A stretch of DNA of 64,000 bases, taken from NCBI GenBank assembly GCA_903904755.1, contig CAIVDV010000073.1:62001-126000 (forward strand). Direction: 5' to 3'. Under the pieces are notes generated by a model. The model did no database searches, was not told the origin of the DNA, and saw nothing but the letters and a program-made list of their open reading frames with translations. Shown here in pieces: positions 6,841-25,703 of the stretch; positions within the stretch are counted from its first letter, which is position 1, and every line of letters starts with the position of its first letter. The translations under genes and the position numbers were made by a program. The stretch comes from an uncultured Acidobacteriaceae bacterium. Lineage in GTDB: Bacteria; Acidobacteriota; Terriglobia; Terriglobales; Acidobacteriaceae.

Positions 6841-6965
6841 GTTTGTAAAAGGGCAACTTCAGTCGTGCCGTAAATGCCTGATAACAAACGAAGGGCTTCA
6901 GCCCCTGCCTACTGTCGGCACTGGAAATACCGTTCCACAAAGCCATTTTCCAGCAGCGTCTTCAG
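6841..6965 (+). repeat. Palindromic (BIME/REP-like) intergenic repeat, copy 2
   Basis: A diverged copy of the element at 5785-5911 in the same orientation. Shared blocks in order are AAAGGGCA, ACTTCAGTCGTGCCG, TGATAACAAA, GGGCTTCAGCCCCTGC and TTTTCCAGCAGCGTCTT. The left arm of the first palindrome has lost two bases. Confidence 0.75.
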
Positions 6966-7032
6966 CCCCTGCAAACCCTTGGCGACCGGAATACGGATGC
7001 AGAAGGACCATTGCCCCGCCCACCCCTTTTCC

Positions 7033-7401
7033 GTCAAGCCCCCAAATTTCTGCGTACTTGCGAAACCCAACAAAACAACCCACTAAGCCCGCAGGGAAAT
7101 CGAGCCGGCATTGCCGGGAATTTATCCCCAAAGGCGCACAATAGTGGAAGCAATCCTGAGGAGGCCAATCCATGTCACATCAACTCCGTTCCATGACCCC
7201 AACCCCTCATTCCCCCAAAAGCGCGCAAAAAGTCCACAAAAACGGCATGAAACGCCCCAGGTAATTACGCGCTAACATGAATAAAATCATAGATATAAGG
7301 GCCATTTTCCCCCGAAAAACACCCCACCCCCCCCCTTTTGGGTGGTTACCTCCTCAAAAATTGAACGCGAAAAGATGCTTTTCGACGCAATCGCGCCCTG
7401 C
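7033..7401 (-). repeat. Novel intergenic element, copy A (about 370 bp)
   Basis: Read on the minus strand this matches the region 23223-23615 block by block, in the same order and at similar spacing: GCAGGGCG, GGAGGTAACCAC followed by a G-run and GTGGG, GTTAGCG-GT--TTACCT, CCGTTTTTGTG, TTTTGGGGG, TATTGTGCGCCT, and a terminal TTTGGGGGCTTGAC. It lies in the convergent gap between the secreted gene (stop at 6708) and the glycosidase (stop at 7456), co-oriented with and about 55 bp beyond the glycosidase stop. No convincing ORF: a 23-codon minus-strand frame begins at its ATG near the GTTAGCG block, but the substitution pattern against copy B shows no third-position bias. Confidence 0.65.
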
Positions 7402-7455: not shown

Positions 7456-9267
7456 CTATCGGGTTGTGCCGAGCCCTGCGATGTAGTCGCGCCAAAGCCC
7501 CGCAAGCGCCTTCCACTGCTCCTCGGTCGGCGCTTCCTGGGTCGATTCCGTCTTGCTGATGAAATAAAGCGCCGGAATCCCGATGTGTGGCTGAGCCTGC
7601 ATATAGCTCCACCAGTCGCGGAGGGTGGTCGAGGATGCGTTGTCCGTGTCGACCGTCTGCCAGCCCGAGATGTGGGCGATGCGGGCCCGGAGCTGCATCA
7701 TCTCCGGCACATGCCGCGATCCGTACCAGATATCGTTCAGTCGGGTGAGGTCGCTCGACTCCCGGAACAGCGCATTGACGGTCTGCGTTTCCACCATGGC
7801 GTCGGGCTTGGCTGCATGGGTCTCCGAGTAGAGAATCCACTGGAACCGCCGAACCCACTCGATGCCGACAGCCGGTCCGGTCAGCGGCAGCCCCGGAACT
7901 GCGGGCGCGCCAACCCAATCCTCCTTGAAGCCGTCTACGCCAAGATCCGCCACCAGGTGCCGAATCCGCGGCCGCAGCCACGCCTCGTACCGCGGACTGC
8001 CGACATCCGCCGTGACGCACTTCCCGCCGGCGGTCACGCAGAGGTCGGCGGGCAGTCCCTCCTCATTCGCCAGCGGCACCCACAGCACGACGTGGCGTCC
8101 TTTGGCGTGCTGCGCGGCGATGAAGCCCTTCATGTCGGGCCACTTCCTCTGGTCCACCTCAAAGGTCCCGTACTGGGCCTGCCACTTGTCGTCAATCACG
8201 ATGGTCCCAAAGGGAATCTGGCGCTCTTCCAGCGTTTTGATCCACTGCTCGTAGTTGGCCTGGGTCGCCATCGTGTTGGGGGCACGGCCGAAGGGGCTGG
8301 TTTCCACCGTCTGCTCGGCCCAGCCGCAGAAGATGGGCAGGTGGTGCCAGGCCGCGTCTGATGCGGCGGCAGGCGTAGAGAACCCTTTGGCATCGAGCCA
8401 GGCAGTGTAACCCGCCAGTGCGTCGAGCGCCGAGTGGGCCGGTGCCAGCGACAGCACCGGGGACGCAAACTCCCCATCGAGCTTCCGGTAGCCCTGATAG
8501 TCCACGAAGAAGCTGGCGCCGGCATAGCGGGAGCCAGTGTATTCCAGCGCCGGGAACTGGTACTCGCCGGGTTTGGTGCCGATTCCGACGCCAAGCCACG
8601 CTCCGTCCTCATGAAAGGCCAGGAACAGTGGGGGCGGGGCGAAGATGCCCGTCATCCGCTCAGGCCGGAAGTCCTGGTCCGACTGGGCCTCGCGCCCAAC
8701 CGAGAAGCCCAGGATCTGGGGCATGGCGATGGGGAATTCGTACAGGTTGGCGTGGTTGGGGTTGGGGGCAAAGTAGTGGTCGGCGTAAATGGTTGTGTCC
8801 CAGAGGTGCCCGGGTACTGAGCCGGAACCCCAGCGATCGGAGACGCCGGAGGAGAGGAAGTAGGCGCGGCCGAGGGCGCCGTGGCCGGTGGCGAACTGCT
8901 GGAACTCAATGTGATCGGGAAGGAATCGCCAGACGAAGTGGCGGCTGGACCAGAGGGAGCTGGTCGCGGTGCAGTCTAACTCGGCGATAACCGGGGCCGC
9001 CGATGGTGTCTGGGGTGCACAGGCTACACCAGAAAGCACCTCCTCGGCAGTGGCACTGGCCAGGCCGGAGACGGCGGGAACGACGAAGATGGGTTGGCCG
9101 TCAAGGTGGATGGTGAGCCTGGGTGGCGTTCCGGCATCCAGTTGAACGGAATACGTGGCGGCCGTCAGCATGAACGGCCGCTCAGGCCGGGACTGGAGAG
9201 ATTGGGCGGAGAGGGGAAGGGCGGCAGCGGCGATGAAAAGGCTTACAAGTACGCGAAAGACGGACAT
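7456..9267 (-). CDS. Secreted glycoside hydrolase, GH31-like alpha-glycosidase
   Basis: A 603-residue exported enzyme. The signal peptide MSVFRVLVSLFIAAAALPLS ends at SAQ. An N-terminal beta-rich domain is followed by a TIM-barrel region with IVIDDKWQAQYGTFEVD, WPDMKGFIAAQHAKGRHVVL and DLGVDGFKEDWVG. The last resembles the GH31 catalytic GxDGFKxDxGE segment, with the Asp of KEDW a candidate catalytic residue. A C-terminal HIGIPALYF segment ends the barrel. Family members cleave alpha-glucosides or alpha-xylosides; GH36-like activity cannot be excluded. The ATG at 9267 follows AGGAG at 11 bases; an upstream in-frame extension of 28 codons lacks a signal sequence. The + strand composition switches from C-rich to G-rich inside this gene. 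Confidence 0.75.
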   Translation of the reverse strand: MSVFRVLVSLFIAAAALPLSAQSLQSRPERPFMLTAATYSVQLDAGTPPRLTIHLDGQPIFVVPAVSGLASATAEEVLSGVACAPQTPSAAPVIAELDCTATSSLWSSRHFVWRFLPDHIEFQQFATGHGALGRAYFLSSGVSDRWGSGSVPGHLWDTTIYADHYFAPNPNHANLYEFPIAMPQILGFSVGREAQSDQDFRPERMTGIFAPPPLFLAFHEDGAWLGVGIGTKPGEYQFPALEYTGSRYAGASFFVDYQGYRKLDGEFASPVLSLAPAHSALDALAGYTAWLDAKGFSTPAAASDAAWHHLPIFCGWAEQTVETSPFGRAPNTMATQANYEQWIKTLEERQIPFGTIVIDDKWQAQYGTFEVDQRKWPDMKGFIAAQHAKGRHVVLWVPLANEEGLPADLCVTAGGKCVTADVGSPRYEAWLRPRIRHLVADLGVDGFKEDWVGAPAVPGLPLTGPAVGIEWVRRFQWILYSETHAAKPDAMVETQTVNALFRESSDLTRLNDIWYGSRHVPEMMQLRARIAHISGWQTVDTDNASSTTLRDWWSYMQAQPHIGIPALYFISKTESTQEAPTEEQWKALAGLWRDYIAGLGTTR

Positions 9268-9728
9268 TGGATGGTGGCTCCTGCGGGACGAGGTCATGGT
9301 ACGAGCCGGGGAAGGGGGCTGTCCAACGATATTTGGTGCCGGATGCAGCACAGGCAGGGCAAGTTTGGGCCAATCTTCGTGCGGGTTTGCTAGACTGATT
9401 GCGGCGCTCCGTGCCGACGTGATTCCTCCTAAGTCTTGGGGGAGAGCGTTCAGTGCGGCCGGCGTCCTACAAAAATAGGGTGTCGAAAAGGAAGCAGAGG
9501 GCGGTCAGGCTGCTCTGGAAGCTTTCGGGGTCGTCGGGCAAGATGGACGGCTGCGGGGGCGGAACAGGGAAGAGCGGCAGGGCAGGCAAGCTCGCAGATG
9601 GCCGAATGCCTGAGTCAGGCTGACCATTCCCGGAGACAGAACAATATTGAAGCAGGCAGGCGGCCGGAGACAGCGGCGTGTTTGCGCCATTCAGGCTGAA
9701 GAGCCTGACAGGCAGAAGAAGGATTGGC
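9268..9728. other. Divergent intergenic region between the glycosidase and yajC
   Basis: About 460 bp with no supported gene. It must hold the promoters of two divergent units. If transcription begins near 9403, yajC would have a leader of roughly 320 nt. The track from 9480 contains GGAAGCAG, reminiscent of part of the SRP RNA loop, but the matching CAGG strand is missing, so I do not call an RNA gene. Confidence 0.5.
9388..9396 (+). promoter_or_regulatory. Possible extended -10 promoter for yajC-secD-secF
   Basis: TGCTAGACT matches an extended -10 (TGnTAnAnT with one change). TTGGGC lies about 20 bases upstream, too far for a good -35. It faces yajC. Based on sequence resemblance only. Confidence 0.3.
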
Positions 9729-22482: not shown

Positions 22483-22536
22483 TAGAATTACTTTGGCATT
22501 TTGGTCCGGACTGGACCGAAGGAAGAGAGAACAATC

Positions 22537-23124
22537 ATGGCTCCATCGTTTATGGCCTCCCATGCCGTGCTGAAGGAAGTGCACGGGGATTTGCGCCGCC
22601 GCATGGACAAGGCGGTCAGCGATTTTCAACATCATCTGGTGTCTCTGCGGACGGGCCGGGCGACGGCTGCGCTGCTGGAGAATGTCCGGGTGGACTACTA
22701 CGGGACCTCTACGCCGCTGAATCAGGTGGCGCAGGTGACGGCTCCTGAGGCGAACCTGATTGTGGTTGCGCCGTGGGATGCGGGTTTGGTGAAGGAGATT
22801 GAGAAGGTGCTGCGCATGCCGGAGCACGGTTTCAATCCGCAGAGCGACGGTCGGCAACTGCGTGTGCCGATTCCGGCGATGACGGAAGAGCGCCGCCGGG
22901 ATGTGGTGAAGCAGTTGAACAAGCAGCTTGAGGACCACAAGACCGCGCTGCGCAACGTTCGCCGGGACGGGAACGATGCGTTGAAGAAGCTGGCCAAGGA
23001 CAAGAAGGTGAGCGAAGACGAAGAGAAGCGCGCCCAGGACGAAGTGCAGGCGATGCTGAACGACGAGATTCGCCGGATGGAAGAACTGGCCAAGAAGAAG
23101 GAAGCCGACATCATGCAGATTTAG
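22537..23124 (+). CDS. frr: Ribosome recycling factor
   Basis: RRF, 195 residues; with EF-G it splits post-termination ribosomes. The family pattern is clear: LRTGRATAALLENVRVDYYG at about 36-55, TPLNQVAQVTAPE, IPAMTEERRRDVVKQLNKQ and the C-terminal KKKEADIMQI. About ten residues of extra N-terminus (APSFMASHAVLKEV) precede the usual start. The ATG at 22537 follows GGAAGAGAG. The usual neighbours pyrH and tsf are absent; here it follows lipA by 54 bp and ends at a good terminator. Confidence 0.97.
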   Translation: MAPSFMASHAVLKEVHGDLRRRMDKAVSDFQHHLVSLRTGRATAALLENVRVDYYGTSTPLNQVAQVTAPEANLIVVAPWDAGLVKEIEKVLRMPEHGFNPQSDGRQLRVPIPAMTEERRRDVVKQLNKQLEDHKTALRNVRRDGNDALKKLAKDKKVSEDEEKRAQDEVQAMLNDEIRRMEELAKKKEADIMQI

Positions 23125-23222: not shown

Positions 23223-23615
23223 GCAGGGCGAAATCTGGTTGCGATGCCGGAATGTTTGATGCGTTTTTTGGGGAGGTAACCACTTCAAAAAGGGGGGGTG
23301 GGTATCTTTTTGGGCTTTTCTGACTCCTATGTGGTTGATGGGGTGGACGTTAGCGGGTGGTTACCTAGTCCATCTTGTACCGTTTTTGTGCGCTTTCTGC
23401 GCGTTTTTGGGGGGAGATGTGCCGGGAGAGTTGCGAATCCCATCCCCCGAAAGCGGGAGATTGGGCACCCGGAATGAGGTCTGCCCTTTCAACTGCGTAC
23501 CCTATTGTGCGCCTATCGGGGGAAATTATCGGCAAGGGTGGGGTGGGATTTTGGGTGGTGTATGTGGTTGGATTTGCGGGGGTTGGGTGCGGCGGGGGAA
23601 GGTTTGGGGATTGAC
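23223..23615 (+). repeat. Novel intergenic element, copy B (about 390 bp)
   Basis: Homologous block by block to copy A (7033-7401, minus strand). It starts at GCAGGGCG, has GGGAGGTAACCAC then a G-run and GTGGG near 23271-23302, GTTAGCGGGTGGTTACCT near 23350, CCGTTTTTGTGCGC, GCGCGTTTTTGGGGGG, TATTGTGCGCCTATCGGGGG near 23504, and ends with TTTGGGGATTGAC at 23603-23615. AGGTAACCAC and GTGGTTACCT are perfect 10-bp inverted repeats about 75 bp apart. It is co-oriented with frr, begins about 20 bp after its terminator and lies in the convergent frr/asnS gap. A 112-codon frame inside it is not matched in copy A, which has stops. Confidence 0.65.
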
Positions 23616-23762
23616 AGGAGCAGCAGGTTGGCCGCGGCTGCGCCGCGGTAGCAAGTCAGCAGGTTAGCGGATAGAGCTCGATTGGTGGCTTATGGGAGGG
23701 TGAGGTCGGTGGGTGGTTGCTCCCCGGTGGCAAGCGCCAGATGTCGATGCGTGGGAATCGGA

Positions 23763-23855
23763 TAGGCGCCGTCCCTACGGGACTCCGTGGAGGTGTGGGT
23801 GGGTATACCCAGCGTTGAAACGCTGGGCTAAGGTACGCTGCGCCTACGGCGCGGG
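23763..23855. repeat. Composite palindromic repeat
   Basis: Several short palindromes in a row: CCCTACGGGACTCCGTGG, CCCAGCGTTGAAACGCTGGG (23808-23827) and TGCGCCTACGGCGCGG. This has the look of a dispersed intergenic repeat; only one copy is inside the window. Confidence 0.6.
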
Positions 23856-23920
23856 TTTGGGGCTTTCGGGGTTGGGTTGGCGGGTCGATGGGGGAAATGC
23901 AGGTCCTTCGACTCGCTGCG

Positions 23921-23967
23921 CTCGCTCAGGATGACCCATCTTAGTTATGGCTCGCTCAGGATGACCC
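23921..23967. repeat. 17-bp direct repeat
   Basis: CTCGCTCAGGATGACCC occurs at 23921-23937 and 23951-23967, period 30 bp, within the non-coding gap before asnS. Confidence 0.8.
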
Positions 23968-24120: not shown

Positions 24121-25464
24121 CTATGGGAAGATGCGGTTGAGGGTGCGGGCGAAGGGGATGGTTTCGCGGACGTGGTCGAGGCCGCAGATCCAGGCGACGG
24201 CGCGTTCGATGCCCATGCCGAAGCCGGAGTGGGGAACGGAGCCGTAGCGGCGGAGGTCGAGGTACCACTGGAAGGCGTCCATGGGGAGGTTGTGGGCCTC
24301 GATGCGGGATTTGAGGAGTTCGTAGGAGTCGACGCGCTGGCTGCCGCCGATGATTTCGCCATAGCCTTCGGGGGCGAGGACGTCGACGCACATGGCGTAC
24401 CTGGGGTTTTCGGGGTCGGGCTGCATGTAGAAGGCTTTGACGTCGGCTGGGTAGCGGTGGACCATGACGGGGCGGTCGAACTGGTTGGAGAGCCAGGTTT
24501 CGTCGGGGGAGCCGAAGTCGTTGCCGTACTCGAAGGGGTTCTCGAGGATGCCGTCTTTGTGGGCCTGATTGAGCATTTCGGCGGCCTTGTCGTAGGAGAG
24601 ACGGGGGAAGGGCGCCTGGATGGCTTCGAGTTTGGTGACGTCGCGGCCGATGGCTTCGAGCTCGGGGCGGCGGTTTTTGAGGACGCACTGGACGATGTGG
24701 GAGAGGAAGTTTTCGGCGAGTTCGAGGAGGCCGTCGAGGTCGCAGTAGGCGACTTCCGGCTCGATCATCCAGAACTCGGTGAGGTGGCGGCGGGTTTTGG
24801 ATTTCTCAGCCCGGAAGGTTGGGCCGAAGCTGTAGACCTTGCCGAGGGCGAGGGCGGTGGACTCGATATAGAGCTGGCCGGACTGGGTGAGGAAGGCTTC
24901 TTCGCCGAAGTAGTCGACGGGAAAGAGGGTGGAGGTGCCTTCGCAGGCGGCGGGGGTGAGGATGGGCGGGTCAGTGCGGATGAAGCCGTTGGTGTCGAAG
25001 TATTCGGCGGCAGCGCGCATGATTTCAGCGCGGATGCGGAGGATGGCTGCCTGGCGGTTGGAGCGGACCCAGAGGTGGCGGCGCTCCATGAGGAACTCGA
25101 CGCCGTGGTCTTTGGGGGTGATGGGGTAGGGGTCTTCCTCGGAGATGCGCTGGACGACCTGGAGGGCTTCGATATCGAGCTCGTAGCCGCCGTGGGCGCG
25201 CTTGTCGGCACGGACCTTGCCGGTGACGATGACGGAGGACTCCTGGGTGAGGCCCTTGAGGGCTTCAAAGAGCTCGGCTGAGACGCCGGCCTTGTGGGCT
25301 ACGCCCTGGATGATGCCGGTGCCGTCGCGAAAGATGGGGAAGAGGAGCTTGCCGGACTCGCGGAGGTTGTAGAGCCAGCCGCGGAGGGTGACGGAGGCGC
25401 CCTCGTGCTTGCCAATGGAGTCGATTGTGGTGATGGGGGCAGAGATTGGGGAGGAATCGGGCAT
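24121..25464 (-). CDS. asnS: Asparaginyl-tRNA synthetase
   Basis: AsnRS, 447 residues, class IIb. The N-terminal OB anticodon-binding domain (about 10-110) includes [18 protein letters not shown]. The catalytic core shows motif 1 around [20 protein letters not shown], motif 2 [20 protein letters not shown], and motif 3 [15 protein letters not shown] near the C-terminus. The TPAACEG segment and overall pattern favour Asn over Asp or Lys enzymes. The ATG at 25464 has AAGGA eight bases upstream; the frame extends further without a ribosome site. The enzyme implies that Asn-tRNA can be made directly here, leaving GatCA mainly for Gln-tRNA. Confidence 0.96.
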
Positions 25465-25703
25465 TCCGTGGTTCCTTTCCGACCGTGAGCCGGGCGGGCG
25501 AAGCGCGAGGCGCACCCGGGCGGTACGGATACAGGATAGCGCGGGAGGGGGAAGGGGGAGTTGTGATGCAGGTTACCAGCGGGTGAGTCTTTTCTAACCA
25601 AGTGGGGTTGGGTGGCCGATGGGATGAGTAGATGCCAATCTGCGGGGTGAGATTTCTCCAATGCGGATGGGTGTTGAGATTTGTTGCGATGAGGATGCGA
25701 GCC

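Follow-up and report, generated by a model that had tools for sequence, protein, structure and literature searches.

Palindrome-associated elements derived from IS200/IS605 have neither terminal inverted repeats nor a target duplication and are moved in trans, and the repeat family described here likewise has no target duplication and no clear terminal inverted repeats. REPINs are described as small units, pairs of inverted REP palindromes, and RAYTs as tyrosine transposases (PMC3116915). As that account presents the REPIN/RAYT system, our family resembles it in combining many short non-autonomous copies with a solitary full-length gene that has the same flanking sequence, in forming lineage-specific variants, and in having a mechanism that is inferred rather than shown (PMC3116915). 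In this genome (G000; 4.22 Mb in 83 contigs), one intact gene stands alone, bordered by the repeat that makes up the dispersed copies. Unlike the REPINs of the same source (PMC3116915), however, the units here are about 300-380 bp and are not palindrome pairs, with a longer inverted partner in just 7 of 19 copies, and, unlike a RAYT, neither the partner protein, P0001, nor its relatives have a significant match in Pfam, NCBIfam or PHROGs, and there is no fold match. Promoter-carrying MITEs, for example the Correia elements, are characterized as short, internally deleted and intergenic, with promoter-like sequence, all of which applies here, but our family differs from MITEs of this type, as far as that source describes them, in having no clear terminal inverted repeats, no target-site duplication and no parent transposase (PMC10969869). 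A full-length unit with the same ends, as expected of a MITE-style parent, was found, and its protein matches no transposase family. We class the family neither as MITE nor as REPIN, since it lacks a target duplication and clear terminal inverted repeats, and since its partner protein is no recognised transposase. Finally, Acido-Lenti-1 RNA (RF01687) is reported as a dispersed short element of Acidobacteria (PMC2864571), from whose published description our element differs in sequence, and Rfam does not match the element itself.

Two window copies and the family in this genome

The window, the whole stretch of 64,000 nucleotides that was analysed, holds two copies of the element, annotated initially at 7033-7401 and 23223-23615. 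In blastn of both copies against the whole window (E < 1e-3), the matches were to themselves and to each other only, the two copies sharing a 149-bp block of 69% identity (E = 5e-12) and a 42-bp block (E = 7e-4). The sequence model R2, built from an alignment (A5) that includes the 7033 copy (L018) and excludes the 23223 copy (L001), retrieved the latter with 76.3 bits and E = 1.2e-22 (match at 23294-23535, minus strand). The two copies are at the positions given in the initial annotation and have the blocks listed there in common, in the same order. That both copies lie between convergent genes also held, but the strands, given as minus for copy 1 and plus for copy 2, are reversed when the element is read along its promoter-like box: copy 1 is then on the plus strand (about 7028-7362) and copy 2 on the minus strand (about 23263-23620).

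7028-7362, plus strand: short-form copy 1 of the element, read along Box 1 (R1 match G000:C73:69031-69339, plus strand, equal to window 7031-7339)
7111-7142, plus strand: Box 1 of copy 1, promoter-like, TTGCCGGGAATTTATCCCCAAAGGCGCACAAT (1-mismatch pattern search, R2 alignment and the letters)
7172-7264, plus strand: leftover 30-codon ORF MSHQLRSMTPTPHSPKSAQKVHKNGMKRPR in copy 1, out of the gene frame at its end (translation)
7322-7335, plus strand: C-run of copy 1, previously noted as a G-run on the other strand (the letters)
7342-7353, minus strand: GGAGGTAACCAC block at the element 3´ end of copy 1 (the letters and blastn)
7456-9351, minus strand: gene adjoining copy 1, glycoside hydrolase family 31
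22501-23124, plus strand: gene adjoining copy 2, frr
23263-23620, minus strand: short-form copy 2 of the element, read along Box 1 (R1 match G000:C73:85286-85617, minus strand, equal to window 23286-23617)
23272-23283, plus strand: GGAGGTAACCAC block, the 3´ end of copy 2 in element sense (exact match)
23504-23535, minus strand: Box 1 of copy 2, TTGCCGATAATTTCCCCCGATAGGCGCACAAT (1-mismatch pattern search and the letters)
24121-25515, minus strand: gene adjoining copy 2, class II aminoacyl-tRNA synthetase

The ends of copy 1 were taken from alignments and from the extents of all-against-all homology. Its GGAGGTAACCAC block imperfectly repeats, in inverted orientation, the AGGTAATTAC stretch near 7259-7268 (plus strand), and the 30-codon ORF is probably not a real gene. 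Two further features lie nearby: a short stretch near copy 1 (6842-6910) matches two places in the related genome G011, and a second dispersed repeat with many other matches in G000 lies beside copy 2 (23736-23967) and contains an Acido-Lenti-1 RNA match at 23808-23853.

Blastn of copy 2 against G000 gave 53 matches. With R1, a sequence model from 19 copies, 41 matches were obtained at E <= 0.01, located at 39 loci (two loci take two matches each), so the blocks do co-occur elsewhere in the genome, contrary to the outcome that would have refuted the initial observation. These loci comprise one intact gene (C71), one frameshifted gene (C11) and 37 short copies, 28 of them near-full (match length 297-381 bp) and nine partial (126-271 bp). 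Read in box sense, the element has TGTCAA and C-rich sequence at its 5´ end, followed by Box 1, TTGCnnnnAATTA-N10-GCGCACAAT, then a spacer, an A-rich stretch with GCACAAAAACGC and AGGTAACCACC, the C-run and, near the 3´ end, an GGTTACCTCC block. Box 1 and the C-run are 222-249 bp apart in the 19 measured copies of G000, and about 186-241 bp apart in most of the G011 and G010 copies that were sampled. On either side, homology between copies runs no more than about 25 bp beyond the modelled core, giving sharp outer ends; the exceptions are L133, L135, L140 and L143, which have ~125 bp more in common on the 3´ side. On their 5´ side, many copies (for example L002, L007, L010, L008 and L029) adjoin arrays of degenerate tandem repeats whose units resemble AGCGGAGTT or GGGGTCA. 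Seven loci are at contig edges. The 3´ end of the element is closer to a gene than the 5´ end (medians 87.5 vs 211.5 bp at 28 loci, p = 0.001, with L160, L163, L165 and L167 left out of the test).

The invariant bases of Box 1 are T2 G3 C4, A28 and T32, together with AA9-10 and T12 of the spacer. The box may be a promoter, in which TTGC would resemble a -35 box and xAxxxT, roughly 20 bp away, a -10 box. Because a -35/-10 spacing of about 20 bp is long for a sigma-70 promoter, we only infer this function. A short peptide gene was considered and rejected: a start codon is present in the spacer of 13 of 20 anchored copies, but only 4 of 12 start-bearing short copies (L005, L006, L009, L010) stay in the gene frame, which is about chance, and the consensus of sampled G011 and G010 copies has no start codon. 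Since the gene frame is lost in most short copies, peptide production is thought unlikely.

A full-length gene unit with the same ends

The intact unit on C71 consists of Box 1, a 160-codon ORF (P0001) and, downstream, the stop codon, the C-run and the 3´ block. The unit on C11 is a frameshifted relative inside the same ends, in which two overlapping frames each match part of P0001. Both the intact gene and this pseudogene thus have the ends of the short copies, which retain the upstream box of the gene and its 3´ end (tail codons and C-run) without its middle. Consistent with this, tblastn with P0001 detected its last ~30 residues at 13 short loci; each match is weak singly (E 0.015-0.64), but each falls at the expected place.

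Relatives of P0001 (E <= 0.001) were found in 14 of 100 genomes, namely in 13 of the 15 that belong to the genus (counting G000) and in a single genome from another genus, G049, where the relative lies 42 bp downstream of a phage-integrase-family gene (L241:8680-9737). A further relative in G176 (genus g9) has Box 1 77 bp upstream of its start. Despite its short-element matches, G001 has no homologue at E <= 0.001. The named records of these relatives are Acidobacteriaceae metagenome-assembled genomes, one of them labelled Terracidiphilus. The third codon position differs most, or equals the first, in all five comparisons, a pattern of modest contrast that would be expected for a conserved protein. 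AlphaFold2 predicted a four-helix core at residues 49-130 with a pLDDT of about 96 (whole model 81.5, pTM 0.59). P0001 is no recognised transposase: no significant match was obtained in Pfam, NCBIfam, PHROGs, PADLOC or PDB sequences, the best sub-threshold library matches being to single members (E 0.012-0.14), and a fold search against the PDB and viral models gave nothing at E <= 0.001. Plasmid and phage records likewise gave nothing at E <= 0.01.

Distribution and amplification in the lineage

R1 matched seven other genomes of the genus (G011 38, G010 25, G002 17, G009 7, G001 6, G004 5 and G012 3) and gave zero matches in the other seven; as the model was built from G000 copies, counts outside G000 are lower bounds. 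The boxes come in the same order in the G011 and G010 copies sampled, and the sequence between them is particular to those genomes. Across 150 genomes of the family, R2 found matches in six (15 candidates scored per genome), while Box 1 with fixed spacing and one mismatch allowed was present in 13: 22 times in G000, 39 times in G011, 3-11 times each in G022, G136, G176 and G195 (genus g9) and G134 and G174 (g3), and once each in five more. The reversed Box 1, used as a control, occurred once in all 150 genomes and in neither G000 nor G011. A C-run follows some g9 copies of Box 1 after about 70-130 bp (L279, L281, L289, L294, L296), and in g3 Box 1 is followed by other sequence. Box 1, which recurs in other Acidobacteriaceae genera, is thus older and wider than the short element of the genus. 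At L272, L285, L286, L293 and L295, in g3 and g9, one or more CTGTGAAACTGTGAC-like motifs follow Box 1; these loci are perhaps another element with the same box. We also noted three tandem Box 1 copies about 190 bp apart in G022 (C2:18250-18662), as well as, in two genera, the element or Box 1 just upstream of a murA-like EPSP-synthase-family gene, at L004 (start of G000:C65; called by Pfam) and at L284 (G174; called by sequence resemblance).

In a tree of 38 sampled copies, the 11 G000 copies formed one clade (support 0.86), and those of G011 and G010 were not monophyletic. The 3´ end of the G000 gene is most like the G000 short copies (mean score 38.6 vs 25.5 and 16.4) and that of the G010 gene most like the G010 copies (25.8 vs 17.7 and 8.8); the G011 gene is similar both to G000 copies (37.9) and to those of its own genome (34.3), and the G002 gene resembles none. 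Of four loci compared for empty sites, one was clean and one, the frr copy, compatible. At the clean site, the dnaA-adjacent copy L140, five sister species retain both neighbours, have no element and are 532-571 bp shorter between the same flanking matches. The extra DNA is longer than the element, so the event involved not only the element, and other sequence came along or nearby. At frr, no R1 match lies between the neighbours in any of the 10 genomes that have both on one contig, where other DNA of about 2 kb or more fills the place. For the copy at C9:169893 the left flank was not found, and the neighbours of window copy 1 were not linked, which left both loci uninformative. Given the single G000 clade and the absence of L140 from five sister species, the family has been amplified in this lineage.

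No target-site duplication was detected in 28 copies (mean longest direct repeat 5.07 vs 5.13 for shuffled partners, with the ends uncertain by some bases). In the same number of copies, the left end scored higher against the reverse-complemented right end than after shuffling (mean local score 11.0 vs 9.4, sd 0.34; 0 of 100 shuffles as high), yet the best score, 17, amounts to only a few base pairs. The lack of target duplication and the weak terminal inverted repeats argue against a classical DDE-transposase MITE.

Origin of the short copies and alternative readings

Taken together, we regard the family as probably a non-autonomous mobile element that arose from a gene unit, was amplified in this lineage, lies scattered through the genome and works in the manner of REPIN/RAYT or MITE systems. 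A non-autonomous repeat was among the readings first proposed for the two copies, and it is borne out by the 39 loci, their sharp ends, the lineage clade, the orthologous site that is empty in five sister species and the ends shared with the gene. As these ends are common to gene and short copies, the latter look like copies emptied of the gene and multiplied within the genome. In the simplest reading of the sequences, a parent unit made up of Box 1, start codon, the 160-codon P0001 ORF, stop codon, C-run and 3´ block would have undergone internal deletion, giving short copies that kept both ends and that would then have multiplied into intergenic DNA as short elements. Weighing against this reading are the missing target-site duplication, the lack of clear terminal inverted repeats and of a recognised transposase, the single clean empty site among four loci with its surplus of DNA, the G011 and G010 copies that are not monophyletic, the divided resemblance of the G011 gene and the isolated G002 gene, and the short-element matches of G001, a genome where P0001 has no homologue at E <= 0.001.

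The best-placed alternative is a multi-copy gene family for a small RNA of about 190-250 bp, transcribed from Box 1, ending at the C-run and kept for its RNA function. Although the spacer drifts, Box 1 and the C-run keep their distance from each other, which speaks for such a gene, but recent amplification also predicts constant length; the most conserved bases of Box 1 sit at the positions of -35 and -10 boxes, but at the long spacing described above. A structured RNA, another of the readings first proposed, was not supported. Rfam gave no match over either copy at the gathering score; relaxing the cutoff to E <= 5 gave nothing over copy 1 and, over copy 2, a single fluoride riboswitch match of 11 bits, at chance level. 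RNAalifold predicted no consensus pair for the G000 copies in gene sense, and z scores were only -1.7 and -0.7 for the all-species alignments and -1.5 and -0.7 for G011. The G010 set gave a mild signal (z -3.1 and -2.2), which is a reason to look again, but a conserved RNA fold across the family is not convincing, and we consider the small RNA reading unlikely.

Decay in place, in which the full-length gene was duplicated many times and most of the paralogues became relics, would account for the intact and frameshifted full-length copies and for the gene tail recognisable in many short copies. Independent decay, however, would produce varied deletions, and the short copies have the same missing middle, near-equal length, often the same junction sequence, and form one clade; other species also have short elements, with different sequence between the boxes. 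We therefore judge this reading very unlikely.

Sites bound by a nucleoid or regulatory protein, with AGGTAACCAC and its inverted partner as the candidate operator, are more improbable still: AGGTAAC half-sites do recur, and in 7 of the 19 near-full copies with AGGTAAC a perfect inverted partner (>= 7 nt) lies downstream, but 12 of 19 have no such partner, and conservation extends well beyond the size of a binding site, into remnants of the gene.

That the element is a structured RNA or a terminator tied to convergent junctions, as the position of both window copies suggested, is barely credible, as the 31 copies scored divide into 12 convergent, 14 tandem and 5 divergent placements, with the tandem ones (8 against and 6 along the element) showing no orientation preference, so that convergent placement is no rule of the family. 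Neighbours were called with a codon-usage gene finder; 32 of the 39 loci had one on each side, and L163, whose own gene counted as a neighbour, was left out. Convergent placement is enriched (12 of 31 copies vs 9 of 50 window junctions; p = 0.009, tested as 12 of 32), but this may merely reflect long gaps, since convergent junctions make up three of the six window gaps of >= 350 bp, and two of these are the copies themselves.

Returning to a mobile element derived from the P0001 gene unit, the sharp ends common to the gene and the short copies suggest that something acts on the ends. Spread would have been transposition-like, with a mover that reads these shared ends. By analogy with REPIN/RAYT, as far as that system is described in PMC3116915, transposition in trans appears the most likely route, and candidate movers are P0001 itself, a resident transposase or a phage-type recombinase. 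In the boldest version, which we hold to be quite unlikely, P0001 would found a family of small helical proteins unlike any known transposase and, together with Box 1 and the C-run end, would propagate both its own gene unit and dozens of emptied copies, as an undescribed kind of mobile element across the Acidobacteriaceae.

A search of open-licence PubMed Central found nothing on this element, and as far as this literature and the libraries searched show, the family is new. If our reading is right, the Acidobacteriaceae have small mobile elements of their own making, a family overlooked by common annotation because no curated family in the libraries searched is matched by either the DNA or the protein. 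With every copy, an intergenic region would gain a promoter-like box and a C-run, and the partner gene, which is solitary and conserved in 13 of 15 genomes of the genus, would allow a direct approach to the question of how such repeats spread when no transposase can be recognised.
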